Below are positions 26,734 to 59,431 of a stretch of DNA of 64,000 nt, piece after piece; within the stretch, counting starts at the first letter, position 1; each line of letters starts with the position of its first letter. The position numbers and the translations under genes were made by a program. The stretch comes from a virus, in IMG/VR virus record IMGVR_UViG_3300037247_000655, positions 101,527 through 165,526 of that record, one strand, 5' to 3'. The notes below the pieces were generated by a model, which saw only the letters and a program-made list of their open reading frames with translations, was not told where the DNA came from and ran no database searches.

Positions 26734-27365
26734 CAACGAGACTCCATATAAATCTTCCGTTCCATAGTCGGTGTCCATAACCCGTCTATAATTCCCATAC
26801 GCGTAGCTGTCTTTGGGGACATCCACTTAGTTTCTTCCATCATAGATAGTAATTGTTTGTTTGTCAACTTAGTCCTCCTAGCCATTGCCTTCATTTTCTC
26901 TAAATAGTCGTCATTGACATATTTTATCATAGAGTTGTGCTTGTCCAGAGACTCCATACCGCTTTGTATAATGACAGAATGCAACATCATAGATGAGTTG
27001 GGTGTTGCATATCTTTTACCCTTGGTTCCGAATATAGAAATTATAGCACCCATAGAATGGGCTTGCCCACGGACTATTGTGTAAACTGGGCCACGACACG
27101 ACAACATCTGATCTATGATAGCATAACCAGAGGCCAAACAACCACCGGGACTATTAATATACATATATATTGGATCTTTAGTCAAAGAAAATAGCTGTAA
27201 ATAATTACATATATTAACTGATGACATTTCATCAATCAAGCCCACTACCAAGATACGACGAGTTCTCGTCAAAAATTCTTCAACGATAGGATCCACCTGT
27301 ATTGGTATTGACATTTCTAGCCCGTCGCCACATTTACATACCCTGTGCTTTGGATTAAATTGCAT
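26733..27365 (-). CDS. clpP: ClpP-like serine protease
   Basis: 210 residues with the crotonase-like ClpP fold: YINSPGGCLASGYAIIDQM, the nucleophile S104 in GQAHSMGAII (most ClpPs have AASMGA) and H129 in MMLHS. The acid residue is in the DKHNSMIKYV region. No ClpX-type partner is seen nearby, so it may use a host unfoldase or act alone, for instance in capsid maturation or host protein degradation. A zinc-like N-terminus (VCKCGDG) is extra. GGAGGG lies 4 bases before the ATG. Confidence 0.87.
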   Translation of the reverse strand: MQFNPKHRVCKCGDGLEMSIPIQVDPIVEEFLTRTRRILVVGLIDEMSSVNICNYLQLFSLTKDPIYMYINSPGGCLASGYAIIDQMLSCRGPVYTIVRGQAHSMGAIISIFGTKGKRYATPNSSMMLHSVIIQSGMESLDKHNSMIKYVNDDYLEKMKAMARRTKLTNKQLLSMMEETKWMSPKTATRMGIIDGLWTPTMERKIYMESR

Positions 27366-28239
27366 CTTTCCCTCCGAAAGGATGGCACTTCTTGTGTAAG
27401 ATTTGTAGTCTATTAAAATCAGTTGTCAAATAGCTCTGAGTAGTAGCAAGATGCTCATGGCCTAGGAGTGTCTGAATACATTCAAGGTCCATGCCATTAC
27501 GCATTAACGTTGTAGCGCAAGTTCTCCTTAACATATGAGGAGTCACGTGCTGAACTCCAGCTCGGCGAGCAGACGACGTAAGCATGTCCGAAACAGCTCT
27601 TCGAGTAAGACGATTGCCATCTGTTTTGACGAACATTGCCTTTCGGGACGAGGCCCTTTCTAAATTAACGTAATCCTGAATCTTCTTAACACACTCTTCT
27701 GTAGTAGGAACGATCCTGTCTACACAACCTTTACCAGATACTCGCATCTCTCGCTTCTTTATATTAATATCCTGTAGATTAAGACTACACAGCTCTGATA
27801 CTCTCAACCCGCTATGATACAGCGTCAATATAATAGCGACATTCCTGCGAACGTTAGATGTTCCATATGAGGGCATACTATTTTTAGCAAATGAAACAAG
27901 ACTATCCACAACCTTAGATTCCACCGCATCTATAGTTCTCCTTTCCACGCGAATCGAATTCATAATAGACAGTAAGTTATCATCTAATAGACCAATACTA
28001 GTCAAGTGATGACACAAACAACGAATAGACATATATTTGCGACGTACGGTTGTATCTATTAGGTTGCTCGATTGTAATCTTTGAATAAAATCTTCAATTA
28101 ACTCAATAGTAATAGTTTGCTTATCAGCAAAGACCATAAATTCCGATACATCCCTAGTATAAGCTTCGATCGTTGCATCAGCCAGGCCAAGTTCCACCTT
28201 CATATACGTGTTAAACTTTTCCCACACTAAGATCGACAT
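27355..28239 (-). CDS. Xer-type tyrosine recombinase
   Basis: 294 residues. The N-terminal SAM-like domain spans 1-100 and a catalytic domain follows. Active-site residues are Arg in YHSGLRVSELCSL, the HMLRRTCAT box, and LLGHEHLATTQSYL with the final His and nucleophilic Tyr. This is the XerC/XerD arrangement. It could resolve genome multimers or integrate the phage; no att site is recognised in the window. It has its own GTATAAT element and AAAGGA before the ATG. Confidence 0.9.
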   Translation of the reverse strand: MSILVWEKFNTYMKVELGLADATIEAYTRDVSEFMVFADKQTITIELIEDFIQRLQSSNLIDTTVRRKYMSIRCLCHHLTSIGLLDDNLLSIMNSIRVERRTIDAVESKVVDSLVSFAKNSMPSYGTSNVRRNVAIILTLYHSGLRVSELCSLNLQDINIKKREMRVSGKGCVDRIVPTTEECVKKIQDYVNLERASSRKAMFVKTDGNRLTRRAVSDMLTSSARRAGVQHVTPHMLRRTCATTLMRNGMDLECIQTLLGHEHLATTQSYLTTDFNRLQILHKKCHPFGGKDAI

Positions 28240-28257
28240 TGCAGTCCTTTCATCGAG

Positions 28258-28278
28258 TTATTATACGTCAAAAGGTAT
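28258..28278 (-). promoter_or_regulatory. Putative minus-strand promoter of the recombinase
   Basis: The minus strand reads CCTTTTGACGTATAATAACTCG, with -10 hexamer TATAAT at 28260-28265 and the recombinase ATG about 20 bases on. The core TTTTGACGTATAATA recurs exactly at 38.98 kb, which argues that it is a phage promoter class. Confidence 0.5.
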
Positions 28279-28303
28279 TGTTTGTTGCCAACATTTTCGT
28301 CTT

Positions 28304-29131
28304 TTATACTCTTTTATATTCAGATTCTACTCCGTTTGTTCCATCTTCAAGTGTGACTATATTAAATCCGTGTGCAAAAAGTGGAGCTTTATCTTGTAGA
28401 ATACGACACATTTTGACAGCTAATTTCCGTATCTCAACATCTGCAAACTTACTACCTCTTAACTCTATAAAATGACGCACAGCTCTAGCATTCATAGTCA
28501 CGAATATCTTAGTTTCAGTTGCGTTAGGGAGTACTGATCTCGCAGCTTGTCGAGCCTTTTTGCGGCGCTCTAACCCACTTTCGATATCCTTATACATATC
28601 CGATAACTTAGTTGTCAGATCTTCATATAGTTGACGGGATTTCTCACAATGTTCTATCCATGTCCGATATGTATCTGGGTCAGACTTTGCTAACTCCTGA
28701 ATTGCCGGAGGTACAACAAACGCGACACTCGATGAATCTACATACCTTTGACTTAACTGTGAAAAAGATGCGATCCGATGACGAACCAATTCATGAGTCA
28801 GACTACGAGAAGCATTCCATATAATAAAATTGAAAACAGCATGTTCTATTGCCGCTCCATGACCTACTTCAATCAAATGCTTTATGTGTTCGTCATGAGT
28901 CCTACCCTTTGGTTTTTCGCCTTCTTTGGCCCATGATTGGTAACAATTCCTCCCGGCCATCTCTACCAACCATTCTCCATCTTTATCACCTAAAGAAATC
29001 ATAGAATCAAGTTGATCTGTAAATTCTGGCCAAACATAATTATGATCATCTAAAAATTCCTTAACTCCTTCAATTTCTATAATTACCTTTCCTACTAAAG
29101 CTATCTTTGGTTCTGTCACGAAATTATTCAT
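28304..29131 (-). CDS. thyX: Flavin-dependent thymidylate synthase
   Basis: 275 residues from the ATG at 29131, which follows GGAGAAAAGGT. The ThyX motif RHRIASFSQLSQRY is intact, and ARSVLPNATETK and NARAVRHFIELR are the other family blocks. It converts dUMP to dTMP using FAD and methylene-tetrahydrofolate, downstream of the dCMP deaminase at 12.7 kb. The longer upstream reading frame overlaps the methyltransferase and lacks family sequence. Confidence 0.94.
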   Translation of the reverse strand: MNNFVTEPKIALVGKVIIEIEGVKEFLDDHNYVWPEFTDQLDSMISLGDKDGEWLVEMAGRNCYQSWAKEGEKPKGRTHDEHIKHLIEVGHGAAIEHAVFNFIIWNASRSLTHELVRHRIASFSQLSQRYVDSSSVAFVVPPAIQELAKSDPDTYRTWIEHCEKSRQLYEDLTTKLSDMYKDIESGLERRKKARQAARSVLPNATETKIFVTMNARAVRHFIELRGSKFADVEIRKLAVKMCRILQDKAPLFAHGFNIVTLEDGTNGVESEYKRV

Positions 29132-29691
29132 ACCTTTTCTCCTTGTTTGACTATCATCCAACAATTGCCGTCTACTACAGGTTTCAACCCATTCGATTGA
29201 GCAAAAGCATCGACGACACCACTGACTGATCCCCAAGTATAATCATGACCCCCTAGAATTCCTCCGCATTTAATCTTTGGCCACCACGCTTCTATATCCC
29301 TCTTAACATCTTTCGCAACATGGGAAGCATCTATGAAACAAAAATCAACACTTGTGTCGCGAAACATGGCGGAGGACTCAGCGCTGTCTTCTTTGTGAAT
29401 ATTAAATTGTCCCAACAGGTTCAATCTCTTCATATTCTCTTTGAAAACTTCCAACATATTTCTTGATCGTTGAGCTTTAGTAGCTGGATCACTAAGACAA
29501 CCGCCAATACAATTATCTACCGCATGATACTCATTATTATTGCGGATACATATAGGGACCATCACCGCAGTGCTCTTACCTGCGAAAAAACCCAACTCTA
29601 CCACGATGCCATTTGTTATCTTATTACATATAGCTGAAACGAACCTCGCATCATTGGGGGCGAACCATCCTTCAATTTGATCCCACCTCAT
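29128..29691 (-). CDS. Class I SAM methyltransferase
   Basis: 187 residues of the Methyltransf_24/CmcI-like type. IVVELGFFAGKSTAVMVPI is motif I, EYHAVDNCIGG is the acidic strand, VDFCFIDASHVAKDVKRDIE is the post-I block and GGILGGHDY the late strand. The substrate is unknown; a sugar or small molecule is as likely as DNA. ATGA overlap with thyX. Confidence 0.78.
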   Translation of the reverse strand: MRWDQIEGWFAPNDARFVSAICNKITNGIVVELGFFAGKSTAVMVPICIRNNNEYHAVDNCIGGCLSDPATKAQRSRNMLEVFKENMKRLNLLGQFNIHKEDSAESSAMFRDTSVDFCFIDASHVAKDVKRDIEAWWPKIKCGGILGGHDYTWGSVSGVVDAFAQSNGLKPVVDGNCWMIVKQGEKV

Positions 29692-29692
29692 T

Positions 29693-30094
29693 CTACATTC
29701 CTTTCTTAATGGCTTTTTCTAAAGCCTTAATCATCGGCAACGCATTATGATTGTCAATGAATAAATAAAATGGTGAACCACTATAACAACAACGAGCTAT
29801 ACCAGCTTTAGTTAATGGGCATTTTTCACAATCGTCACGTAAACCACTAAAATGCTGGCACAATGCACAAGTCTTGTCAGTAAATTCAAAACACTTTACA
29901 TCCTCCCCATCTTCCGCTCTTTGTATGTCTGAAGTATTCATCAAATCGGTACCGTCTAACGACACCTTATGTTTCTTTCTATTAACAGGTTTCAAGCCCA
30001 ACCACTTTTTCAATGAATGCTTTAATGCATACCTTGCAGACACTTTATTAGCTGGTGTACTATAGAATTCCTTTTTCCACGATGACAGACTCAT
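29693..30094 (-). CDS. Cys-rich hypothetical protein
   Basis: 133 residues. The C-terminal half carries paired cysteines (KTCALCQHF, DDCEKCPL, ARCCYSG) that probably hold one or two metal sites. The N-terminus is basic. The ATG at 30094 is preferred over 30100 because AAGGAG is 8 bases away. Function unknown. Confidence 0.68.
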   Translation of the reverse strand: MSLSSWKKEFYSTPANKVSARYALKHSLKKWLGLKPVNRKKHKVSLDGTDLMNTSDIQRAEDGEDVKCFEFTDKTCALCQHFSGLRDDCEKCPLTKAGIARCCYSGSPFYLFIDNHNALPMIKALEKAIKKGM

Positions 30095-30120
30095 TCCCAT
30101 CTCCTTAAATAGTTCAACAT

Positions 30121-30396
30121 CTACCCCATCTTTTCATGACGTTCTTCTTCTTTTATTCTACCTATCTCTCCTTCAACAAAAATATCTTCACTACAATGAT
30201 TGGTAAAATCTTCACACTCATTACACAAATACATATTATAGATTTCATTGATACCTATAACTTTATGAATAGTGAACTCGCATCCGATAGGGAACGATAT
30301 ACAACAACCGAAACACTTATGGGGCTTCCTTGTCTTAGCAATATGGATTATTCTCAATGTATAACAATCTCTTGGTGATGTCTTAAGTTTTTTCAT
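30121..30396 (-). CDS. Small zinc-finger protein
   Basis: 91 residues beginning MKKLKTSPRDCYT, chosen because AAGGAG lies 4 bases before the ATG at 30396. Zinc ligands are probably KCFGCC and LCNECED. It overlaps the BrxL-like gene by 14 bases and is likely co-translated with it. The family resembles other small phage proteins with a Cys-containing receptor-like fold, but is not identified. Confidence 0.68.
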   Translation of the reverse strand: MKKLKTSPRDCYTLRIIHIAKTRKPHKCFGCCISFPIGCEFTIHKVIGINEIYNMYLCNECEDFTNHCSEDIFVEGEIGRIKEEERHEKMG

Positions 30397-34669: not shown

Positions 34670-35083
34670 CTACCTATATCCAGTTACAACGACTCTTTGA
34701 TGACCATTCTCACAACGTTCCCTCGTCACTGTCCTACCACGATGAGACATATCTATTTGGAGCTTATGATAAGCATAGTTCCCTCTTAGTTGATCCATCC
34801 ATGTTTGTCCATATTCCTTTGAATCGTATTCAGAGATTATTGCTTCGTAACATCCGTCTTCCCCTATTACAAATCCGATGTCATTAGAAGATTTACCTAC
34901 GTTTTGCTTCTTAATTATAATATTGGCTACTTCTTCTCTTTGGTCTCCTTTGTGTCCATGAAGATGTTGTGGGGTTTCATGGAACACTATTTGTGTTTTA
35001 GTCCACCCTCCAGTTTCTATTAGAGCTGCTACGAGGGCTGTTCCGTCTTTAAAGGCGGTTTTAATCAAACAATATCTGCTCAT
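34670..35083 (-). CDS. DUF1257 (Ycf35-like) protein
   Basis: 137 residues. VFHETPQHLHGHKGDQRE, ANIIIKKQNVGKSSNDIGF and YEAIISEYDSKEYGQTW are the blocks of DUF1257, known as Ycf35 in algal plastids and cyanobacteria. Function unknown; it travels with DUF2997 and Ycf46-like ATPases, as here. AAAGGAG 8 bases before the ATG. Confidence 0.85.
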   Translation of the reverse strand: MSRYCLIKTAFKDGTALVAALIETGGWTKTQIVFHETPQHLHGHKGDQREEVANIIIKKQNVGKSSNDIGFVIGEDGCYEAIISEYDSKEYGQTWMDQLRGNYAYHKLQIDMSHRGRTVTRERCENGHQRVVVTGYR

Positions 35084-35325
35084 CTGAGATTCTCCTTTTC
35101 TTCTCCGTCGTGTTTGGTAGCTAATTTTTCCAAGGACATCGCTTGTCTTCCATTCATTATTAATTGGCTACCTAATGTAGTTGCTTGCTGTGCTGTTAGG
35201 TCTAGTGGTACAAATTCTGGTCCCCATGTGTCAACTTGTTCTGGTGACCGTTTGATGTATAGTGAAACATCAGGTCCATCACCCCATGTACATTGGGTGG
35301 ATATTTCTTCATTTTTTATTTTCAT
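35080..35325 (-). CDS. Small hypothetical protein
   Basis: 81 residues. A beta-rich half (VSLYIKRSPEQVDTWGPEFV) and a helix (DLTAQQATTLGSQLIMNG) that looks like a short regulator subunit. Not recognised. ATGA overlaps on both sides. Confidence 0.65.
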   Translation of the reverse strand: MKIKNEEISTQCTWGDGPDVSLYIKRSPEQVDTWGPEFVPLDLTAQQATTLGSQLIMNGRQAMSLEKLATKHDGEEKENLR

Positions 35326-36080
35326 TTTTTATTCGCCTTATTCCACCTAGCACGATCGAAAGCATTCATTGGCGGGGCGTCTGCGATAAATTCTTCGAAA
35401 AATTCGTCGCACCTACATCCGCCATCTCTACAACGATCATATCCATCGCAAGTACAATCTTCATACAACCAACCACAATCCGGACATGTGTCACAGACAC
35501 AATCAAAACTATGACACTCACTACATTGTTCGCCACAAATACATTCATCTAATGAATAACAGCATTCATCAAAAATATCTTCGTCTACACACTCTACGCA
35601 GGTTTCGTCTTCTTTGACCAGTTGTTCTTTCTTACAGGAATCACATGCTATTGTGTCTGGCAACTTGTAGTCTTCACCATCCTCTCTACCTAAGATGACT
35701 TTGACTGGTTTTAGTGCCACTATAAAACAGGGTACATCTCTGTCTGGGTCAAAGTCTCGCCTGTGTTGATTTAAAGCGCCCATTGCTCCACCATCTAAAC
35801 CTGTGCTTAGGTTTGTGAATGTTCTTCCTGCTAGTTCTATTTCACCATTAGCATCATATGCTAAAGAGTATGCAAGACCAGAATGGTAGCATCCACCCAA
35901 GACAATTCTCGTATCTTGGTCACGTGTATCATCGATAAAATCATCGATATCCTGATGGATTTTGTCGACAAAATCGACTTCGTAGTGTATATCCATTGAT
36001 GCAAATACTAGTTCTTTATTAAACAGCTCTTTGCATCTCCGAATAATATCATATGCTCGTTCGTCATTTTGGTTACACAT
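35322..36080 (-). CDS. Protein with C-terminal Cys-rich zinc region
   Basis: 252 residues. The first 140 are alpha/beta with GGCYHSGLAYSLAYDANG and LSTGLDGGAMGALNQHRRD, unrecognised. From about 145 the protein is packed with Cys pairs (ACDSCKKE, TCVECVDE, ICGEQCSECHSFDCVCDTC, CTCDG), enough for three or four zinc atoms. It recalls RING-like or rubredoxin-like adaptors and may relate to the zinc repeats of the E2-like protein at 46.8 kb, although the spacing differs. Confidence 0.7.
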   Translation of the reverse strand: MCNQNDERAYDIIRRCKELFNKELVFASMDIHYEVDFVDKIHQDIDDFIDDTRDQDTRIVLGGCYHSGLAYSLAYDANGEIELAGRTFTNLSTGLDGGAMGALNQHRRDFDPDRDVPCFIVALKPVKVILGREDGEDYKLPDTIACDSCKKEQLVKEDETCVECVDEDIFDECCYSLDECICGEQCSECHSFDCVCDTCPDCGWLYEDCTCDGYDRCRDGGCRCDEFFEEFIADAPPMNAFDRARWNKANKK

Positions 36081-37090
36081 TAGATTATCACCTTTCTCGT
36101 AAGTTCTCCAATAAATTTGCTTCCACTACTTCCCTCTGTGTCAGCTTTCTCTCTAATAGCATCAAGTGTTTTAGATACACTTGTTTTTATGGCTTCCGAA
36201 TCAAAATCCTGGTTAGTTGTACCGGGACTTAAAAAAGTATCTTTGAATTCACTCAACATTTTTTCAATTTCATCGTCACCAAAGATATTCATTTGTTTGA
36301 AACGGTCTACGTAAGTTCGGAAGCACGAAAATGTTTTAGCAGTAAGCTTTTTACTGTCCTCTTCTTCTCCGAACGGTTCTCCGTTTATCCTGGCTGTCAT
36401 AAAATCACAGAATTGTATAGTCTCTTTTCTCATAGATGAGACATATTCTCCAACGAACACACCTACTTCAGCTTGCATCTGATTACGGATTTCTTGTTGT
36501 TTCTCTGACTGGACCTTCTGTTGAGCAATAATATCTTCTACGTTAGTCTCTTCTATGACATTGATACCCGCAATCTTGAAAGTGTACCAGTCAAACTGAA
36601 AATACTTGCGTAGTTCACTTGGGTTAGCTGGGTAATTACCTTTGATACACTTGTCCCAAAAATCAGGATGTGCTTTTCTTATTGTGGCAACCAAGTCATC
36701 AAAACGAGTAATGAAGCTGTCTACTCTCACAAAGAATTCTTCCTTTAGGTCTTTGATTTGCCCTTCTACTGTAGGTAGCATGTGCGATGGAATAAAATGG
36801 GCGCTGGCAATGCCAAACGGTACTGACCATTTCTCAAGAGCTTTCCTGGCACGTTTTTCTATTTGAGCTAATACTTGCAATTCTTCTTTGGGTACGATCA
36901 ACTTTCTTCCTAGGTTAACAATATCGTCTGGAAGCTTATCCGGGTCGTATCCAAGTTCTATTAGATCTGTTTTGGTTAGCATTTTTCTTCCAGACCACAT
37001 TTTTATCTTTAAGTTGACTAGGCACCCAACATCAAATAAACAGATTGTGTCTTTCTCTAAGATTGGTTCTTGTATTGTTGTCGTATTCAT
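36080..37090 (-). CDS. DUF3150-like helical protein
   Basis: 336 residues from the ATG at 37090, which follows AAGGAG. Mostly helical. LNLGRKLIVPKEELQ-type text (here DIVNLGRKLIVPKEELQVLA) and the block ALEKWSVPFGIASAHFIP resemble DUF3150 proteins, which occur beside MoxR/CobS-type AAA ATPases. Here the neighbour is a Ycf46-like ATPase. It may form an adaptor for that machine; inference. Confidence 0.7.
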   Translation of the reverse strand: MNTTTIQEPILEKDTICLFDVGCLVNLKIKMWSGRKMLTKTDLIELGYDPDKLPDDIVNLGRKLIVPKEELQVLAQIEKRARKALEKWSVPFGIASAHFIPSHMLPTVEGQIKDLKEEFFVRVDSFITRFDDLVATIRKAHPDFWDKCIKGNYPANPSELRKYFQFDWYTFKIAGINVIEETNVEDIIAQQKVQSEKQQEIRNQMQAEVGVFVGEYVSSMRKETIQFCDFMTARINGEPFGEEEDSKKLTAKTFSCFRTYVDRFKQMNIFGDDEIEKMLSEFKDTFLSPGTTNQDFDSEAIKTSVSKTLDAIREKADTEGSSGSKFIGELTRKVII

Positions 37091-37149
37091 TTCTTTTTTC
37101 TCCTTTGTCTTATTGGTTTTGAATTCTTTAAGTTTTGGCACAATATTTC

Positions 37150-38715
37150 CTAATTCAAATCGACTTTTCTCGTATCAACATTATTGCTTTGTGGAGCTGT
37201 TCCCTGTGGGTTAGCGGGCTTTGCATGTTTTTTACACCATTTTCTAATAATTTCTATACGATCAGGTTCAGTTTTTGACAAAGGTATAACATTAGATGTA
37301 GCTTGTATTAAATGAGATGTCTTTAATTTGGTATTGTTACTAAATGCGATCTTAAGACCTAATTTGATAATTTGCTCTATGTCCGCGCCGGAGTATCCAT
37401 CTGTAATAATAGACAATTCTGATGTTACAAAATCATCTGGTTTTCTGTTTCTTTTAGATAAATGAATATTAAATATTTCTATGCGTTCTTTTTGAGACGG
37501 CAGATCTAGTGAATATATTTCGTCGAATCTTCCTTTTCTGGAAAATTCAGGGGGAAGTGATTCTATTTGATTCGCGGTAGCTACTACATAAATAGGGGAC
37601 TGTCTATCATTGAGCCATTTTATGAAAGTGCCGAACACCCGGCGAGATGAACCTCCATCACTATCTCCAGTGCCACCGAAGCTCTTCTCGACTTCGTCAA
37701 GTTGCAACACAAGTGGGCATACACTTTCCAACATCTTAATAGCTTCCCTCATATTGTGTTCTGACTCACCTACGTATTTATTCATTAAATTACCGACATC
37801 CATAGACACAAGAGGGAGGCCAAGTTCAGATGCAATAGCCAGAGACAATAGAGTTTTTCCACAACCCATTACCCCAACCAAAAGAATTCCTTTAGGAAAC
37901 TCAATACCGAAGTCTCTCGCCTCTTGGGTAAAACATGGTTTGTCTAACAATATGTGTTGTTTCAATGCATCATACCCTCCGACAATATCTAATCCTCCAT
38001 CGGGAGGTTCTGTGTATGTCAATAGACCTGACGCTTTTATTATGCTTGCCTTTTCTCTTGTTATGGTGTGTATTGCATCTGCGTTGAGATCTTTATGTTT
38101 ACACAAGGAGAGCGTGACACGATCAACCACTTGTTGGGAAGTCATTCCACGACAAGCATCTATTACCTCTGGGACTATGCTGGCGTCTATAACAAATTTT
38201 TCTCCATCAGCTTTCTTTACGTCACTACACGCGAATTGTATTCGTTCGTTGATTTGTTCTTCGTCAGGGAGATTGAAGTCGATCGTGGTTATGTCGTGCA
38301 GTAGTTGTTTTGGAATTTCCAAGTCTGGTCCTACAAATATAATAGTTTGGCCAACAGACGCCGTGATTTTTCTCAGTGTATCTAACCAACCTATCACTAT
38401 ATCACATCCAGGATAGGTACTATGATTCAGATACATCCCAAAGTCACGCAAGACGCAAATAGTATTATCAGGAAACTCAAGAATCGCTTGGATATGTTCA
38501 TGGACGGGGGCCATAGCAGGTGGTGCTTTGTCCACAGATTTGTTGTTACAATCTTTCCACCCTTCGGAAATTGACCACACATAGATTTGACGTTTAGTAT
38601 CTTCAGCGACATCGGAAATGTTACATATAGCACGATCTTTCTCAAATGTTTCGATATATAACAATGCGTGTCCAGAGCGAATATAGTCTGCAAGGTTACT
38701 GCGAAAATCATTCAT
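37150..38715 (-). CDS. Ycf46-like AAA+ ATPase
   Basis: 521 residues. The N-terminal domain begins NLADYIRSGHALLYIETFEK, as in Ycf46. The AAA+ module has Walker A GVMGCGKT (281-288), Walker B LVLQLDEVEKSF, sensor 1 YVVATANQIESLP, the arginine-finger region EFSRKGRFDEIY and a C-terminal helical lid (GYSGADIEQIIKLGLK). Ycf46 is found in plastids and cyanobacteria; its target is unknown. It forms a set with DUF1257 and DUF2997. AAGGA 7 bases before the ATG. Confidence 0.88.
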   Translation of the reverse strand: MNDFRSNLADYIRSGHALLYIETFEKDRAICNISDVAEDTKRQIYVWSISEGWKDCNNKSVDKAPPAMAPVHEHIQAILEFPDNTICVLRDFGMYLNHSTYPGCDIVIGWLDTLRKITASVGQTIIFVGPDLEIPKQLLHDITTIDFNLPDEEQINERIQFACSDVKKADGEKFVIDASIVPEVIDACRGMTSQQVVDRVTLSLCKHKDLNADAIHTITREKASIIKASGLLTYTEPPDGGLDIVGGYDALKQHILLDKPCFTQEARDFGIEFPKGILLVGVMGCGKTLLSLAIASELGLPLVSMDVGNLMNKYVGESEHNMREAIKMLESVCPLVLQLDEVEKSFGGTGDSDGGSSRRVFGTFIKWLNDRQSPIYVVATANQIESLPPEFSRKGRFDEIYSLDLPSQKERIEIFNIHLSKRNRKPDDFVTSELSIITDGYSGADIEQIIKLGLKIAFSNNTKLKTSHLIQATSNVIPLSKTEPDRIEIIRKWCKKHAKPANPQGTAPQSNNVDTRKVDLN

Positions 38716-42456: not shown

Positions 42457-43249
42457 ACACTTGCTCCTCAGTAAATGACGTATCCACATCACCGTCCCTA
42501 GAAAGAGACATCTGAACTGTCTCCATACATAGTCTACAGTTCATTCCTGCTTTCAGTTGTTCGGATCTCCAATTGTATACATATTCCTGCGCTTCTTCCC
42601 ATGTTGTTTCATTGAAGTGTCGCCAAGGAAAATAACCAAATGGGCATTTACATATCATACCATTTTCTGTAATGGTCATGTTACACATGTCTTCGCATCT
42701 AGATACTGTGTTTTTATAGCCTCCAAGATTATTATCCCATGCCCTTCCTACCGGAACTATGTCGTTGACACTCGAATCACCTGGTTCTATTATGGGGATA
42801 CCCATATTATTATCTTTTAATAAAGATATAGCCTTGTGGCTGGGTTTGTCGTGCCAACTATCTTGAGATACAGCAACCTCTATTCTTGGGCACGATGCTG
42901 CTTGTATTTGTCTCATTGCGTCAAAGAATGTATCTGTACCTCTACCACCCCAAAATCCATTTGTTACCAACCTAATCCTACCCCTGCCTGTAGATAATGC
43001 AACAAGCATTTCTGGGTAGTTTTCTAAAATAGTAATTTCACCACCCATGATATTGAGGTTGATTTTTTTTGGTACCCAAGCGTTAAGTTCTTCACACGCA
43101 CTAGTAGACATCTGACCAATCATACTAGGGCCAGATCTAAAACAACAATGTCTACACTGTTGATCGCACTTGTTGGTGACCCTAACGACACAAGCCGTTG
43201 CAGCATTAGCCCTTTTCCATATTCCAGGCCATTTATCATGATTATCCAT
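42449..43249 (-). CDS. Radical SAM protein
   Basis: 266 residues. Cluster motif C28-x3-C32-x2-C35 (CDQQCRHC) plus an adjoining Cys, NIMGGEITIL as the SAM-binding GGE, and a C-terminal Cys group (RCEDMCNM, ICKCPFG, NCRLCMET) that may hold an auxiliary cluster. It resembles small SPASM-like peptide-modifying enzymes, but no precursor peptide is evident next to it. Overlaps the kinase-phosphatase by 8 bases. Confidence 0.83.
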   Translation of the reverse strand: MDNHDKWPGIWKRANAATACVVRVTNKCDQQCRHCCFRSGPSMIGQMSTSACEELNAWVPKKINLNIMGGEITILENYPEMLVALSTGRGRIRLVTNGFWGGRGTDTFFDAMRQIQAASCPRIEVAVSQDSWHDKPSHKAISLLKDNNMGIPIIEPGDSSVNDIVPVGRAWDNNLGGYKNTVSRCEDMCNMTITENGMICKCPFGYFPWRHFNETTWEEAQEYVYNWRSEQLKAGMNCRLCMETVQMSLSRDGDVDTSFTEEQVYV

Positions 43250-44375
43250 TACTGTTTACCTCATGAACCATAACGTCGTCTCCATCTCCGTCTATGACCA
43301 TGCCCCTTAATACCCCACCATCGCAGATACCACCATCTAGACAATAAGCTGAGTTGACAGGATGTGGATCTTCGCAAATAATGTGGCCACCGATTATATT
43401 ATATGTGTCGTCAAGTGTTTCCCACCACAACACACCATTATTGTCGTCATAAAAATCTGATCCACGTAGGTATCGTGAGTACAAACACGTTTCTACGTGC
43501 TGACTATAGATGGACTTGCCACCATCAATCCCTGCGTGTACAACATAAGTCGGTTTAATACCTATGTCACCAATACGAATCATTTGAGGCAAATACTGGA
43601 ACCACGCTGCCCATTCGGTCTTATCTAAATCAGCGCATTGTTCTATGGTGCAATCTAGACCATTGACTATCTTTACTGGGTTTCCAATCAGATGTCGACG
43701 ATATTTGTTGTCGTGATTACCTTCAACCGAGTAGGCACCAGGCGTATCTCTGAACCACTGTAGTGTTTCCCTTATCCTGGGGCCACGATCAACAAGGTCT
43801 CCTGTTGCTACCACGATGTCTCCTGCTCTATACTCACATTTAGCAAGAAGGGACATAAATTCGTTAAAATACCCATGGATATCCCCCACAACAATCACCC
43901 GCTCGCCTTGGCATATATTTCTAAGATCCAATAAATTGGCTGTACGTTTGCTGCATATATGAAGAATCTCGTCATATTCATCACAACTAGGTGGTTCAAA
44001 CTGATCGAAATACACATTAAGTATCTTATTGTGATCTGCATCTACAGAAATAGTTGGGTGGTTTTTTCTGGTTGCAAGACGCTCAAGACATGTACGTCTA
44101 TTTATGTCGAATAACACAAAAATCACACTATACCCTGATTGCCTAGCTGGTTTTGTATACCTATCTCTTTGAGCCCTGTTGAGATTCATTCTATCGACTA
44201 CTATGGATATCCTAGACTTAATAGATGTCTGAAATATACGGTGATGATGCTTCCCTTGTTCGTCTTGCGACAATCTCATTATGGGCCTGCCTGGTTGTCT
44301 CATGAGTGTGTTTGTTGCCCAATAAGTCTTGCCTGATCCCTGTGGTCCTATTAGTATATAGATTGTCTTACTCAT
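43242..44375 (-). CDS. Polynucleotide kinase-phosphatase (Pnkp-like) fusion
   Basis: 377 residues. The N-terminal P-loop kinase has GPQGSGKTYWATNTL (9-23). The C-terminal calcineurin-type phosphatase has VVGDIHGY, TGDLVDRGP, EGNHDNK and VVHAGIDGG. This is the kinase-plus-phosphoesterase order of bacterial Pnkp without the ligase domain. Such enzymes heal 5'-OH and 3'-phosphate or 2',3'-cyclic phosphate ends, for instance tRNAs cut by host anticodon nucleases. The phage carries tRNA genes, and the first lies 0.5 kb away. Confidence 0.87.
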   Translation of the reverse strand: MSKTIYILIGPQGSGKTYWATNTLMRQPGRPIMRLSQDEQGKHHHRIFQTSIKSRISIVVDRMNLNRAQRDRYTKPARQSGYSVIFVLFDINRRTCLERLATRKNHPTISVDADHNKILNVYFDQFEPPSCDEYDEILHICSKRTANLLDLRNICQGERVIVVGDIHGYFNEFMSLLAKCEYRAGDIVVATGDLVDRGPRIRETLQWFRDTPGAYSVEGNHDNKYRRHLIGNPVKIVNGLDCTIEQCADLDKTEWAAWFQYLPQMIRIGDIGIKPTYVVHAGIDGGKSIYSQHVETCLYSRYLRGSDFYDDNNGVLWWETLDDTYNIIGGHIICEDPHPVNSAYCLDGGICDGGVLRGMVIDGDGDDVMVHEVNSNG

Positions 44376-44891: not shown

Positions 44892-44916
44892 TGGTCACCT
44901 AGCTTTCTATTTTACT

Positions 44917-44988
44917 GGGCCTGTCTGGATTTGAACCAGAAACCCCTCCGTTATGAGCGGAGCGCTCTGCCAATTGAGCTACAAGCCC
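44917..44988 (-). tRNA. tRNA with CAU anticodon (Met or lysidine-Ile)
   Basis: Complete 72-nt cloverleaf: acceptor GGGCTTG/CAGGCCC, D stem GCTC/GAGC, anticodon stem CTCCG/CGGAG with loop CTCATAA, T arm TCTGG-TTCAAAT-CCAGA, discriminator A. CAU can be elongator Met or Ile2 after lysidine modification. The sequence alone does not settle it. Confidence 0.93.
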
Positions 44989-45040: not shown

Positions 45041-45220
45041 TTATGAATCACGAACTCCATGGAGTTCTACGAACTCTTCCTTAGCAGATTCTATTTTAAC
45101 TCTTTTGCCACACTCAATGTACGACTCTGCCGCTTTTGCAGACGAAAAGAGTCTTTTGAATTCTTTGACTGGCTTTCCAGTTATATCTAGTGTTTTTCTC
45201 ATCACTACCCATGCTTCCAT
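45041..45220 (-). CDS. 59-residue protein behind the E1-like gene
   Basis: Short gene below usual cut-offs, overlapping the E1-like stop (TAATG) with GGGAG 8 bases ahead. Basic: RKTLDITGKPVKEFKRLFSS then KAAESYIECGKRVKIESAKE. No family recognised. Being the last gene of the ubiquitin-like cassette, it could be an accessory or a conjugation target. Confidence 0.66.
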   Translation of the reverse strand: MEAWVVMRKTLDITGKPVKEFKRLFSSAKAAESYIECGKRVKIESAKEEFVELHGVRDS

Positions 45221-45879
45221 TATTGTGCTCCCATCTCGTTTGTCAATAGATTAAGGTCTATCTCCTTATCTATGTCGCATCCACGCAACCATTGGGCGAA
45301 TTGCGCCACCATAAGTCCCGCTGCAATATTTGCGCAGTAGATGGTAGTTTTTGCTGTACACCTATCCTGAAATGCTTCTGCCGATGAGAACAGCGTTGTC
45401 TCATAGTGTTTCCTAGACGACTCATCATAGGCCGTGAACACTCTCATGTATTCAGCACTCATCCTCCCGTCTACGAACAGATCTGCCCTCCCCTTAACTC
45501 TGTTGAATATAGATGTTTTAGTTTCTATCCCGTCCGCACAGCAAAATAAAACACCCCCGGTAAACTGGCTAGACTTGAACTTACTACATGCAGTGGTTAC
45601 CTCAATTCCTGAATTGATAAGTCGACATATATCCGCCACGGCGTCTACCTTTGGTTTAGCTAGGTCTGTTTCATAAAAACCCTGTGCTGCTAAGTTCTCC
45701 ACAGCCACCGTGTCAAAATCTATCACACTCAACTTCGGGACACCAATTGCTGCTAACTGTAACGCTACTTGACGACCAATTGCCCCAACACCAACGACAG
45801 TAGCTCTTGTTTCTGCTAATTTGTCTGGTGGTACCAACTCCTGTTGACGTACGTCTCTTCCCGATATCATTGTGCTCAT
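45220..45879 (-). CDS. E1/ThiF-like adenylyltransferase
   Basis: 219 residues from the ATG at 45879 (GGAG 6 bases ahead). Single Rossmann ThiF domain: VVGVGAIGRQVALQLAAIG binds ATP (GVGAIG 30-35), SVIDFDTVAVENLAAQGF carries the Mg-binding Asp and the conserved Asn. LFCCADGIETK follows, then DRCTAKTTIYCANIAAGL with C174 as candidate thioester cysteine. It would adenylate the Ubl C-terminus and pass it to the E2-like protein. Much smaller than eukaryotic E1 and without a ubiquitin-fold domain, as in bacterial E1-E2-JAB operons. Confidence 0.88.
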   Translation of the reverse strand: MSTMISGRDVRQQELVPPDKLAETRATVVGVGAIGRQVALQLAAIGVPKLSVIDFDTVAVENLAAQGFYETDLAKPKVDAVADICRLINSGIEVTTACSKFKSSQFTGGVLFCCADGIETKTSIFNRVKGRADLFVDGRMSAEYMRVFTAYDESSRKHYETTLFSSAEAFQDRCTAKTTIYCANIAAGLMVAQFAQWLRGCDIDKEIDLNLLTNEMGAQ

Positions 45880-45909
45880 GGTAGTCTCCATAATAGATTA
45901 GGAATTCCT

Positions 45910-46743
45910 TTAGTCATCCATAACTAACTCTCGCTCATTTGCGTACTTAGTAGCCCATGCTTTGATCTGCTCAATTAATGGTTCGTTCGGATTAGGTATT
46001 ACCTCTAATAAATCTTCGTCTTCTGTCCACCATTCATCTGCTGTTGGATTGTATACATACCAGACTGCTTCCTCTTCGTCCCAGTGTGATGCGTTACCAT
46101 CAGAGTTCCAGTAGCATTCAATGTCTTTACACAAAAGATCTTTCCACAGAGGATCTTCCATGTCTTGGGTAACACTGGGAGACATCGTCTTTGTTATTAT
46201 TTGAAATTCCTCAACGACTACCTTTGTGTTATATTCTTCCTCCCACGCCTTGGCGTTCGATGAGCCAAACGGGACACTCCAGTCTACCGTTACTTTAAGT
46301 AGTTTTTCTACTCCCGGAGCCGTATTCATCTTGAGACGGCAATATGTAGAACCGTCTTTAGCAATGATTAACATAATTGCCCAGTTAGGATGAGAGAATG
46401 CTTCCTTAAAGTTCTCCTCATCGTTCGCGCTAGGATGTGGCGAATTGCCCGGGTGGGAATGAATCAAAAGATTCATACATGCCCATGGTGGCACACCTAT
46501 GTCCATCATTCGTTCTGTGTGTTCCGCATTGTCCTCTGGGTCTAGTTCGAAATGGATAGGATTACATTTTTGTTTTACTAGAACGAAATCGGTGACTAGC
46601 AAAGGATCTTTTGTTGCAGTTATGCCGTATCCCGCTACTTCAGTGGGACCCAAGTCTCTCATACACAACAATTTTGAGTAGGCATATGCTGTAAATCTCA
46701 GTGTATCACCAAACGTTACCTTTGGTTTTGTGAATTCTTCCAT
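45910..46743 (-). CDS. JAB/JAMM metallopeptidase (deubiquitinase-like)
   Basis: 277 residues. The JAMM zinc site is complete: E35 in TEVAGYG, then LIHSHPGNSPHPSANDEE giving H95, H97, S105 and D108. The C-terminal 100 residues are acidic and Trp-rich (WDEEEAVWYVYN, ADEWWTEDEDLL), possibly a Ubl-binding extension. In such cassettes JAB enzymes trim the Ubl precursor and remove conjugates. AAAGGG before the ATG; 15 bases from the E2-like gene. Confidence 0.9.
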   Translation of the reverse strand: MEEFTKPKVTFGDTLRFTAYAYSKLLCMRDLGPTEVAGYGITATKDPLLVTDFVLVKQKCNPIHFELDPEDNAEHTERMMDIGVPPWACMNLLIHSHPGNSPHPSANDEENFKEAFSHPNWAIMLIIAKDGSTYCRLKMNTAPGVEKLLKVTVDWSVPFGSSNAKAWEEEYNTKVVVEEFQIITKTMSPSVTQDMEDPLWKDLLCKDIECYWNSDGNASHWDEEEAVWYVYNPTADEWWTEDEDLLEVIPNPNEPLIEQIKAWATKYANERELVMDD

Positions 46744-46758
46744 TTTTATCCCTTTCGG

Positions 46759-48090
46759 TTAATCATCAATCTTGGCTAAGATACAATTATGCTTCTTAGA
46801 ACAAGACGTGCAAGTAGATGTTCCGCAGTGTTCACATATGTTCCTATAACAAGAATCACACACTAGCTTGTTGCATTCTTCACAATCGTTTGTACATCCC
46901 TCACAAATACCCGCAGAGCATTGGGTGCATTTCTCAGTTATACAATCTTCACAGAAAACATCCATACAACCACCACATTCTGTCTTGCAACCGTCGCAGA
47001 TATAATCTCCACAATTGGTGCACGGAGTAGAACATGATTCGCAATGGTCTGTCTGACATGTTAGACATAGGCTCGTGCACGATGAGCATACTGTATTTTT
47101 ACATTCTGGACACGTTGTTAAACACCCCTCGCAATATGTCGAGTCACATTCCTCACATGTTTTAGAACAATCCCCACAGAACATCTCGTTACATCCTACG
47201 CAACCTGCTCCATTGAAGCAACTTTCACAGAACACGTCTCTACAGTTATTGCAAGTATATATCAGACTATCATCTAGAGAATCAGAGCAGACTATACAGG
47301 CGTGTTCACTATCTGGATCGTACCATTCATTAAGGTGGTAATACGGTGAGTCTCCGTTGTATGTTCTAAGAATTGACTCAACAATTGTAAGGTAATCCTC
47401 AAGTCTACCTTCACACAAAGCTGCGTTCATTATGTCGCCGCCGTCGCCACAGCAAAGTCTTTCGTTTTTTACGTGTGGATGGTAGCCACCACCGCCAGAC
47501 TCTATTTTGTTGACGGATTCTATCCAGAGGCTTTTGAACGGTTCGGTTATGTTAAGGTGAATCCAAAAGGAACCTAGTTCGACTTCTTCTTCAGACTCAC
47601 TTAATATAACATCTTTTACAAGAACAGACAGTATGTTATCACGGAATTTTACTTCTTCCCATGCGGCCACAATGGCATACATTTCTTCCATTGCTACTTT
47701 GTGGGACAAAGGTGTAATCTTATCATCTATCAGATATTGGAGTGTAGTAGAATTGTAACCAATCGCCGCGATAAGATCTCTTTCAACTTCTTTCGCTAAG
47801 ACCTTGATTATATTATCATGTGTGTGATGAGGGATGAGCCCAAAATGCCGTGGTTTCGTGGTGTCCCACGGGAATTTCTGGACTTTCAGGTCATTCGCAG
47901 ACACAAAAAGTCTAACCAACCTACTTAGTTCATTGGCTTTGTTAACAACTTTTCGAACGTTTCCAATTGTTTGTGGTACGAATTCCTGTCTACCTTTGAT
48001 TGCTTCTTGGATCATCCAGTTTCTATATTTCGAGGCTGCACGACGAACAAGTTTATCGTTCATCTTGCCTGGTTGTTTTTTCGCGATCAT
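46759..48090 (-). CDS. E2-like conjugating domain fused to ten zinc modules
   Basis: 443 residues from the ATG at 48090 (AGGA 9 bases ahead). A helical N-terminus (1-150) is followed by an E2-like fold at about 170-258. This has the strand ELGSFWIHLNITEPF, YHPHVKNERLCCGDGG with the HPHV motif and candidate catalytic C213, and helix LEDYLTIVESILRTYNG ending SPYYHLNEWY, the pattern of bacterial E2-like proteins. From 265 to the end come CIVC and ten consecutive CxxC-x4-CxxC units, about 15 residues each. The repeats could act as an E3 or target-binding scaffold built onto the E2. Confidence 0.82.
   Translation of the reverse strand: MIAKKQPGKMNDKLVRRAASKYRNWMIQEAIKGRQEFVPQTIGNVRKVVNKANELSRLVRLFVSANDLKVQKFPWDTTKPRHFGLIPHHTHDNIIKVLAKEVERDLIAAIGYNSTTLQYLIDDKITPLSHKVAMEEMYAIVAAWEEVKFRDNILSVLVKDVILSESEEEVELGSFWIHLNITEPFKSLWIESVNKIESGGGGYHPHVKNERLCCGDGGDIMNAALCEGRLEDYLTIVESILRTYNGDSPYYHLNEWYDPDSEHACIVCSDSLDDSLIYTCNNCRDVFCESCFNGAGCVGCNEMFCGDCSKTCEECDSTYCEGCLTTCPECKNTVCSSCTSLCLTCQTDHCESCSTPCTNCGDYICDGCKTECGGCMDVFCEDCITEKCTQCSAGICEGCTNDCEECNKLVCDSCYRNICEHCGTSTCTSCSKKHNCILAKIDD
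46801..47253 (-). repeat. Ten tandem CxxC-x4-CxxC coding repeats
   Basis: Ten units such as CNNCRDVFCESC, CVGCNEMFCGDC, CPECKNTVCSSC, CTNCGDYICDGC and CEHCGTSTCTSC follow each other without other sequence. Each has the four Cys needed for one zinc. Unit sequences differ, so the expansion is old rather than recent. Confidence 0.85.
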
Positions 48091-48112
48091 AGTAGATGTT
48101 CCTGTCAAATTC

Positions 48113-48145
48113 AAAAAGGGGTGGAGGAAAGATTTCCCCCACCCC
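48113..48145 (-). terminator. Rho-independent terminator between Ubl genes and E2-like gene
   Basis: Stem GGGGTGG/CCACCCC extended by a G-T pair and GGAA/TTCC, tetraloop, then TTTTTG on the minus strand. It starts 20 bases after the stop of 48165-48410. It should stop or thin transcription before the E2-JAB-E1 genes. Confidence 0.85.
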
Positions 48146-48164
48146 ATTAGAGCCACAATCCAGA

Positions 48165-48410
48165 CTACTTCACCCCCAACAACTTACTCCGAACCTGTTT
48201 AGCTTCGTCTGCCGGAAGCTTGGCTATCAGGTCTACTACAGACTTTGGTAGCTTATTCTTCGCTTCCTTCCTATTCAACTTATATGCCAGAGCAACAACA
48301 TCGTCTGTTTGACTAGCTACCAAGTTTTCAGCCATAGCGATAGCCTCATCGCTCATCCTGGATCGAAGCGACTGAATCTGCTCTTCATTAGTTCCTGGCC
48401 CTCGTGCCAT
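48165..48410 (-). CDS. 81-residue helical protein paired with the Ubl
   Basis: Starts at the ATG at 48410, which has AAAGGAG 7 bases ahead; the longer upstream reading has no RBS. Sequence is wholly helical (NEEQIQSLRSRMSDEAIAMA; KSVVDLIAKLPADEAKQVRS). No family recognised. It shares its transcript with the Ubl and ends at a strong terminator, so it may be made in similar amounts, as expected for a Ubl partner, chaperone or target. Confidence 0.75.
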   Translation of the reverse strand: MARGPGTNEEQIQSLRSRMSDEAIAMAENLVASQTDDVVALAYKLNRKEAKNKLPKSVVDLIAKLPADEAKQVRSKLLGVK

Positions 48411-48479
48411 CTTAATTCTCCTTTGCGGGGCTACACGCCCAATCCTCTGTTCCAATAGACGACTCCACATAGAGCCACC

Positions 48480-48505
48480 GACCCGTGAATCAAAACTATA
48501 CCATA
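48480..48505 (-). promoter_or_regulatory. Possible promoter between Ubl and helical gene
   Basis: CCTATGGTATAGTTTTG on the minus strand contains an extended -10 (TGGTATAGT) about 80 bases before the ATG at 48410. No good -35. Confidence 0.28.
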
Positions 48506-48517
48506 GGTTCAACCAAC

Positions 48518-48775
48518 CTAATGCATAGCTTGAATAGTTACAGTGTCACTGCCATCAACCTTAAGGGGTGCCAATGATATGCGGTCTCCATCCTGAAGGA
48601 TATAGTCCATATGGGCCTCAACCGATGTCCCATTGGCCCTGACACGAATCTTAAACTCTTCTATGTCTCCCTCGAATGCAACCCTCAAGAAATCTTCCAG
48701 CCGAGTGTCGTCTGCAACATCTACCTGCTGAGGTAATCCTGCCCCGTCGTTGGTGATTAGTGTGACATTGATCAT
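48518..48775 (-). CDS. Ubiquitin-like (ThiS/MoaD-type beta-grasp) protein
   Basis: 85 residues. INVTLITNDGAGLPQQVDV, TRLEDFLRVAFEG, FKIRVRANGTSVE, and DYILQDGDRISLAPLKVDG give the strand-strand-helix-strand-strand order of ThiS/MoaD-like Ubls, with the diagnostic LQDGDRI turn. In relatives the chain ends shortly after the position of VDG. Here ten more residues (SDTVTIQAMH) follow G75, so either a JAMM cut exposes the glycine or conjugation uses another end. AGGAG 6 bases before the ATG, directly behind a hairpin. Confidence 0.83.
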   Translation of the reverse strand: MINVTLITNDGAGLPQQVDVADDTRLEDFLRVAFEGDIEEFKIRVRANGTSVEAHMDYILQDGDRISLAPLKVDGSDTVTIQAMH

Positions 48776-51799: not shown

Positions 51800-51801
51800 A
51801 T

Positions 51802-51875
51802 ACCCCCGACCGGACTCGAACCGGCAACCCTCCAGGATGAAAACCTGGCGTCATAACCAATTAGACCACGGGGGC
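51802..51875 (-). tRNA. tRNA-Glu (UUC)
   Basis: 74-nt cloverleaf: acceptor GCCCCCG/CGGGGGT, D arm GTC/GAC, anticodon stem CCAGG/CCTGG with loop TTTTCAT (anticodon UUC), T arm GCCGG-TTCGAGT-CCGGT, discriminator A. Confidence 0.93.
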
Positions 51876-51887
51876 AACACCTACTAC

Positions 51888-59291: not shown

Positions 59292-59306
59292 ACATTCACC
59301 TCCATT

Positions 59307-59379
59307 GTCCCCGCTAGGACTCGAACCTAGAACTACAGCATTTTAAGTGCTGTTCCTCTGCCAGTTGGGATACGAGGAC
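59307..59379 (-). tRNA. tRNA with UAA anticodon and a short variable loop
   Basis: 73-nt cloverleaf: acceptor GTCCTCG/CGGGGAC, D arm TCC/GGA, anticodon stem CAGCA/TGCTG with loop CTTAAAA (UAA, Leu), T arm CTAGG-TTCGAGT-CCTAG. The variable loop is TAGTT, whereas bacterial tRNA-Leu has a long arm. Confidence 0.88.
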
Positions 59380-59431
59380 ATTGTACCAGAAGTCCTGTAG
59401 TTGGTATAACTTTTATTCAGGGCTGGGCATA

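Follow-up and report, generated by a model that had tools for sequence, protein, structure and literature searches.

Does a tailed phage carry a ubiquitin-like conjugation pathway of its own? The question is raised by a cassette on the minus strand, spanning positions 48775 to 45220 of the 64,000-nucleotide stretch of DNA analyzed here (the window), that encodes, in order, a ubiquitin-like protein (Ubl), an E2-like protein, a JAMM peptidase, and a ThiF/E1-like enzyme. The window comprises bases 101527 to 165526 of a 165,526-base (165.5-kb) IMG/VR tailed-phage record. A preliminary description of the window had reported a complete Ubl/E2/JAMM/E1 set on one strand in a phage, and this was borne out: all four genes are open reading frames at the positions first given (Table 1), and the ThiF and JAMM proteins score above their Pfam cutoffs. 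Judged by its gene content, the carrier is a real tailed phage, because portal, tape-measure, and terminase-like genes, together with tail genes, are present in the remainder of the same record. A close portal homologue (54 to 69% identity) occurs in four other large cassette-bearing sequences, one of them inside an archaeal metagenome-assembled genome (MAG), and three of these four also contain a homologue of the tape-measure protein. The set had further been described as lying beside replication genes, but the genes for DnaE polymerase, primase, DnaB, RecA, and ribonucleotide reductase are located at 4.7 to 23.9 kb and the cassette is located at 45 to 49 kb, a distance of 21 to 40 kb.

Table 1. 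Cassette genes and nearby features, in window coordinates
Feature	Position	Strand	Details
tRNA-Met	44916-44988		
ThiF/E1-like adenylyltransferase	45220..45891	-	223 aa; candidate catalytic C178
JAMM/JAB peptidase	45910..46743	-	277 aa; E35, HSHP (95-98), S105, D108
E2-like protein	46759..48090	-	443 aa from probable start 48090; longest ORF to 48156
Modelled E2 domain	47302..47745	-	AlphaFold2 on 21 sequences
Terminator-like hairpin	48118..48145	-	12-bp stem, then T run, between 81-aa gene and E2 gene
81-aa protein	48165..48410	-	Between Ubl and E2; ATG at 48410 with AGGAG before it
Ubl	48518..48775	-	85 aa; ThiS/MoaD-type beta-grasp; ORF, AGGAG upstream
tRNA-Glu	51800-51876		
tRNA-Leu	59305-59380		

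Several other features of the window and its relatives were recorded. The ribonucleotide reductase large subunit (20958 to 23882) includes an intein containing a LAGLIDADG domain, and a terminase-like protein (L033:7069-10338; record positions 27069 to 30338) contains internal endonuclease/HNH-matching segments that are perhaps an intein as well. The presence of a tyrosine integrase gene (27355 to 28239) indicates that the phage may be temperate. The protein encoded at 43242 to 44375, read by eye, has an N-terminal kinase-like part and a metallophosphatase-like part and looks like a Pnkp-type nucleic acid repair enzyme. Dockerin-like repeats, also recognized by eye, are encoded in another cassette-bearing viral contig (L009:12217-12807). 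Genes for AAA, DUF3150, and DUF1257 proteins (34670 to 38715) keep a syntenic position close to the cassette in several relatives and are adjacent to it in Rhodopirellula (L031); a functional link to the cassette was rejected, as the AAA gene is present in 130 named phage records, mostly from host groups that lack this ThiF.

After the removal of near-identical or repeated loci, 37 distinct E2-bearing loci were counted, including the window: 20 viral contigs, one phage contig within an archaeal MAG, and 16 planctomycete loci. The gene order, which the preliminary description had proposed to look for in related phages, was kept at 36 of the 36 other loci, all of which hold Ubl, JAMM, and ThiF genes on the same strand; the outcome that the preliminary description had named as fatal to its proposal, genes never found together in relatives, did not arise. 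The viral loci were found through ThiF alone, in successive searches that returned one, three, and then 21 viral loci plus three genome loci, whereas the planctomycete loci, except L031, were found through E2. Profiles of Ubl, E2, JAB, and ThiF built from the first four loci recovered all four genes in order at every ThiF locus except a lone copy (L030), a second, cassette-free ThiF in Rhodopirellula sp. SM50 that is 90% identical to the ThiF of L031. Nine of 294 planctomycete-phylum genomes were positive in a search with the E2 profile, one of them with as many as six copies, and the complete four-gene set was present at all 16 planctomycete E2 loci. Since the searches began from ThiF or E2 and the collection scans were pattern limited, these counts measure tight linkage rather than natural frequency. 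Within the clade of the window phage, synteny between the cassette and its neighbors is retained.

Other scans returned little. Single-sequence scans with the window E2 found no relatives, the E2 of L009 had no relative among named phages, the JAB had no match among named phages, the Ubl scan gave one match at chance level, and no plasmid carried this ThiF at an E value of ≤1e-10. An archaeal host was considered and rejected: in the "Heimdallarchaeota" MAG CP070695, the phage sequence (CP070695.1 47485-172989, holding L029) runs exactly from one 100-N gap to another and is a misplaced phage contig in the MAG "chromosome" and not evidence of a host.

The peptidase and the E1-like enzyme belong to recognized families. 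The JAMM protein matches PF14464 (Prok-JAB) at 30.3 bits (cutoff, 25), and all of the ligands attributed to it are present: H95, H97, S105, and D108 in 37 of 37 loci and E35 in 36, with one gap. The ThiF protein matches PF00899 at 81 bits (cutoff, 28) and keeps G34, G36, G39, D58, N66, Q70, K81, D120, D141, and R143 at every locus. Its candidate catalytic cysteine, C178 in the numbering of the longest ORF (C174 of the first reading), is found in all 33 loci whose ThiF sequence reaches it. The position of MoeB Arg73, the canonical E1 arginine, is occupied by T, P, A, or S in all 37 loci and never by Arg. The four genes, their fixed association, and the near invariance of their catalytic residues can be read directly from the sequences.

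The E2-like protein consists of N-terminal helices, an E2 domain with HPHV and C235, and a C-terminal tail with 21 CxxC motifs. Its probable start is an ATG at 48090 preceded by AGGA; counted from there, C235 of the longest ORF becomes the C213 named earlier as the candidate cysteine beside HPHV. At the 37 loci the motif reads HPH (HPF in L028) followed by Cys, any residue, and Gly, and HPH, C, and G are the sole invariant positions in an alignment of 21 E2 domains whose identity to the window ranges from 20 to 54%. In eukaryotic E2s the step from HPN to the cysteine is ten residues; from the first His to the Cys it is ten in five of the loci and nine in the remainder.

An AlphaFold2 model of the E2 domain computed with 21 sequences had a pLDDT of 89.1 and a pTM of 0.84 (a first model, with four sequences only, was poor, at a pLDDT of 49.7) and runs helix, four strands, active-site loop, two helices. 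The preliminary description had made its proposal depend on an E2 fold around HPHV, and the model is E2-like: in Foldseek searches of the PDB, the two best matches were a Leishmania ubiquitin E2 (probability, 0.77; a weak E value of 0.13) and the human E2 H (probability, 0.69; E value, 0.22, also weak), with TM scores of about 0.44 to 0.46, and two UEV domains were also among the top eight. Seven viral proteins in a viral structure library matched the model at probabilities of 0.97 to 1.00. In profile alignment with hhalign, the HPH and Cys fell on the HPN and Cys of the four eukaryotic E2 sequences used, which were entered by hand, at a pairwise E value of 7e-4 compared with 0.2 to 0.7 for unrelated control pairs but at a probability of only 10%. 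Searches of Pfam, NCBIfam, PHROGs, and PADLOC with the E2-like protein gave no E2 or E3 family match, the Pfam E2 families matched none of the 21 members, and a sequence search of PDB chains with the E2 profile returned no E2. Taken together, the motif, the model, and the profile alignment indicate that the protein is probably an E2, the fold itself being supported but not proven.

The cysteine-rich tail was modelled at low confidence. At least four CxxC motifs follow the E2 motif in 35 of the 37 loci, and L025 and L028 have none. The tail of the window protein had no E3 match in Pfam, PHROGs, or NCBIfam at an E value of ≤1; that it binds zinc and acts like an E3 is our guess.

The window Ubl scores 17.1 bits against ThiS, under the cutoff of 22.5, and its match to moaD_arch is also weak; ThiS is matched by 10 of 19 members of the Ubl family, with a best E value of 2.8e-4. 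Its last conserved glycine, G75 (in ..PLKVDG), is followed by the 10-residue tail SDTVTIQAMH. This glycine is invariant, and at least one residue follows it in all 37 loci, the first being A, S, G, or P and the tails reaching about 36 residues. Tandem Ubl-like units occur in three phage contigs (L017, L020, and L021); internal junctions ..KVEGA../..KVQGA.. are present in L020 and L021. Because every Ubl extends past the glycine and three contigs encode tandem units, it is likely that the JAMM peptidase trims a Ubl precursor before activation. An archaeal Rpn11/JAMM enzyme cuts a nine-residue tail off pro-ubiquitin and also works as a deubiquitinase (PMC5654768).

Two small proteins of unknown function had also been reported in the cassette, and only one of them has relatives. 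The 81-amino-acid protein encoded between the Ubl and E2 genes (48165 to 48410 being its probable extent, although the longest ORF begins at 48512) has homologues of 79 and 84 amino acids, with 42 to 44% identity, in the corresponding position of L013 and L014; it is not present at most other cassette loci and, on this distribution, is an optional part of the cassette. The 59-amino-acid ORF at 45041 to 45220 has no relatives. Sequences resembling ribosome-binding sites precede the Ubl, the 81-amino-acid ORF, and E2. The terminator-like hairpin upstream of the E2 gene folds at -25.2 kcal/mol (z score, -3.1). Separate transcription of the Ubl from E2-JAMM-E1 is only suggestive, because terminator-like sites are no more numerous there than chance would give (2, versus 2.7 expected in shuffled sequences).

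More distant ThiF homologues, with 24 to 29% identity, occur in crAss-like phages (L002, L004, and L005), Flavobacterium phage FpV4 (L006), and Xanthomonas phage PhiXhv-12 (L003). The E2-like proteins encoded next to them align in register at an HSH or HPH, the C, and the G, at pairwise profile E values of about 1e-3, and 74 named phage records contain a crAss-type E2-like protein; ThiF aligned with the crAss-like sequences gave too diverse an alignment for use in scanning. The crAss-like and FpV4 sets include a JAB, and the crAss-like set lies between the genes for primase and uracil-DNA glycosylase. In the Xanthomonas phage the candidate Ubl ends in SGG, and the neighboring genes show no JAMM match. 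The upstream Ubl candidates of these distant loci were assigned solely on the basis of position and C-terminal motif and have no profile match to the window Ubl. In a tree of ThiF, JAB, and E2 rooted on the distant phages, the planctomycete copies and one viral contig (L019) form one clade among the phage sequences. Transfer of the cassette from phage to bacterium is only suggested by this tree, because several deep supports are low (40 to 57) and the outgroup branch is long. A broader and more tentative proposal is that these sets form a family of viral Ubl pathways in which a single protein combines E2 with E3-like functions and the JAMM peptidase trims single or tandem Ubl precursors; the family may be an old component of infection in several lineages of large phages, including the crAss-like phages, and planctomycetes may have captured it from phages.

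We consider it probable, at roughly 75%, that the cassette encodes a ubiquitin-like conjugation pathway. This reading is based on the order and strand kept at 37 loci whose E2 identity to the window falls to 20%, on the near-invariant active-site residues of E1, JAMM, and E2, and on the predicted E2-like fold. It is also supported by Ubls that always extend past the glycine and in three contigs occur in tandem, by the Xanthomonas relative in which a candidate Ubl already ending in SGG has no neighboring JAMM, and by the archaeal precedent (PMC5654768). In the pathway that we infer, the JAMM peptidase would cut the Ubl precursor after the last conserved glycine, and the ThiF-like E1 would adenylate that glycine and then bind the Ubl through a thioester at C178. 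The E2-like protein, with HPH in place of the eukaryotic HPN, would next accept the Ubl on C235 (C213) and join it to target proteins, perhaps with its cysteine-rich tail serving as an integral E3-like guide. The JAMM peptidase could later remove the Ubl again. Each of these steps, like the part played by the tail, the choice of target, and any gain for the phage, is put forward conditionally. Counting against the pathway are the weak Foldseek E values and low hhalign probability of the E2 comparison, the absence of an equivalent of MoeB Arg73 from all 37 loci, a trimmed Ubl terminus that would have one glycine and not two, and a tail that lacks an E3 family match and is missing in L025 and L028.

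The main rival concerns the purpose of the cassette and is compatible with conjugation: like Bil, which tags phage tail proteins and blocks virion assembly, the set might tag the structural proteins of other phages, excluding competitors or superinfection. Tested bacterial Ubl/E2/JAB/E1 operons are antiphage systems (ISG15-like/Bil and type II CBASS; PMC10952713), and the planctomycete copies are as patchily distributed as accessory defense genes often are. Models from a defense library, however, do not identify the set and give generic E1-E2 and JAB matches only; moreover, the cassette keeps its neighbors in the window clade, and the crAss-like set is not in an accessory region. This purpose therefore appears unlikely. 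We favor, as a weakly held guess, a target among phage or host proteins that is acted on during the phage's own infection program, because the set is kept and syntenic in the window clade and, in crAss-like phages, is found amid genes for replication.

The Ubl might instead be a sulfur carrier, converted to a thiocarboxylate for thiolation or cofactor synthesis. ThiS, MoaD, ThiF, and MoeB are the nearest characterized families, and some such carriers are accompanied by JAB genes (PMC1779556). This is improbable, as an E2-like protein with HPH and the invariant Cys adjoins every ThiF of the family except L030, a sulfur relay would need no E2, and no rhodanese or other sulfur-transfer gene was recognized among the window genes scanned. 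Quite improbable, too, is that the E2-like protein is no E2 but a zinc-binding scaffold, with a Ubl that acts noncovalently or is merely adenylated: the statistical link to E2s is weak and the Pfam E2 families match none of the members, but against this reading stand a domain in which only HPH, C, and G are invariant, the modelled order of helix, strands, active-site loop, and helices, and the His-to-Cys step shared by five loci with eukaryotic E2s. Counter-defense, in which the pathway tags, or the JAMM peptidase strips, host defense proteins, is hardly probable: large phages often encode counter-defense genes, but a lone stripping peptidase would need no Ubl, E1, or E2.

The components and chemistry of the proposed conjugation pathway are already known. 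No four-gene Ubl/E2/JAMM/E1 phage set with this E2 appeared in the papers searched, whose coverage takes in little of the subscription journals and preprints. Bacterial Ubl conjugation is known mostly as a host defense, and a pathway whose modifier, E1, E2, and peptidase are all encoded by a virus would, if confirmed, put this chemistry to a new viral use. Because the four genes recur in the same order in large phages and a few planctomycetes, they suggest that some viruses of microbes operate a protein-tagging pathway of their own. Because distant E2-like relatives are present in culturable phages (crAss001, DAC15, and Flavobacterium Fpv phages), the idea can be tested directly. The tandem Ubl precursors beside a JAMM gene also resemble eukaryotic polyubiquitin processing and bear on the origins of the ubiquitin system.

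The Bil operon has four components, a Ubl, an E2, a JAB-type deubiquitinase, and an E1. The phage set contains the same four kinds, with a JAB of PF14464, but differs in an E2 that matches no Pfam E2 family and in the tandem Ubls of some relatives and the cysteine-rich E2 tail of most. PF14459 and PF14455 are the families given for ISG15-like systems (PMC10952713); neither the Bil-type E2 model (PF14459) nor PF14455 matched, so the relationship to Bil suggested in the preliminary description was not sustained by these family models. Type II CBASS shares E1/E2 chemistry and a JAB-type Cap3, and the phage ThiF and JAB give generic weak matches to it, but Cap2 is an E1-E2 fusion (PMC12355090), whereas the phage set has separate E1 and E2 genes and a dedicated Ubl. 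With separate genes, and with no CD-NTase recognized among the cassette and adjacent proteins scanned, membership in type II CBASS was rejected. PRTRC membership was likewise rejected (PRTRC_ThiF, 22 bits versus a cutoff of 145; no PRTRC match among other window proteins). A phage Ubl-JAB pair in the tail assembly genes of lambda/T1 occurs without E1 or E2 (PMC1779556). Among predicted bacterial Ubl/JAB/E1/E2 operons (6a to 6e; PMC1779556), which have the same kinds of components, 6d has separate Ubl, JAB, E1, and E2 genes but adds a fifth, alpha-helical protein and has an E2 without the classical histidine, and 6e resembles the tandem-Ubl relatives in its proteins with one to three Ubl repeats but has an E2-like domain without Cys and a JAB usually fused to E1 (PMC1779556). 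The Caldiarchaeum cascade is similar in passing a JAMM-trimmed Ubl precursor to E1 and E2, aided by a small RING E3, but it is encoded on an archaeal chromosome, with a separate RING protein and a diglycine end (PMC5654768). The phage set, in contrast, has a single glycine, and its cysteine-rich tail is fused to the E2.
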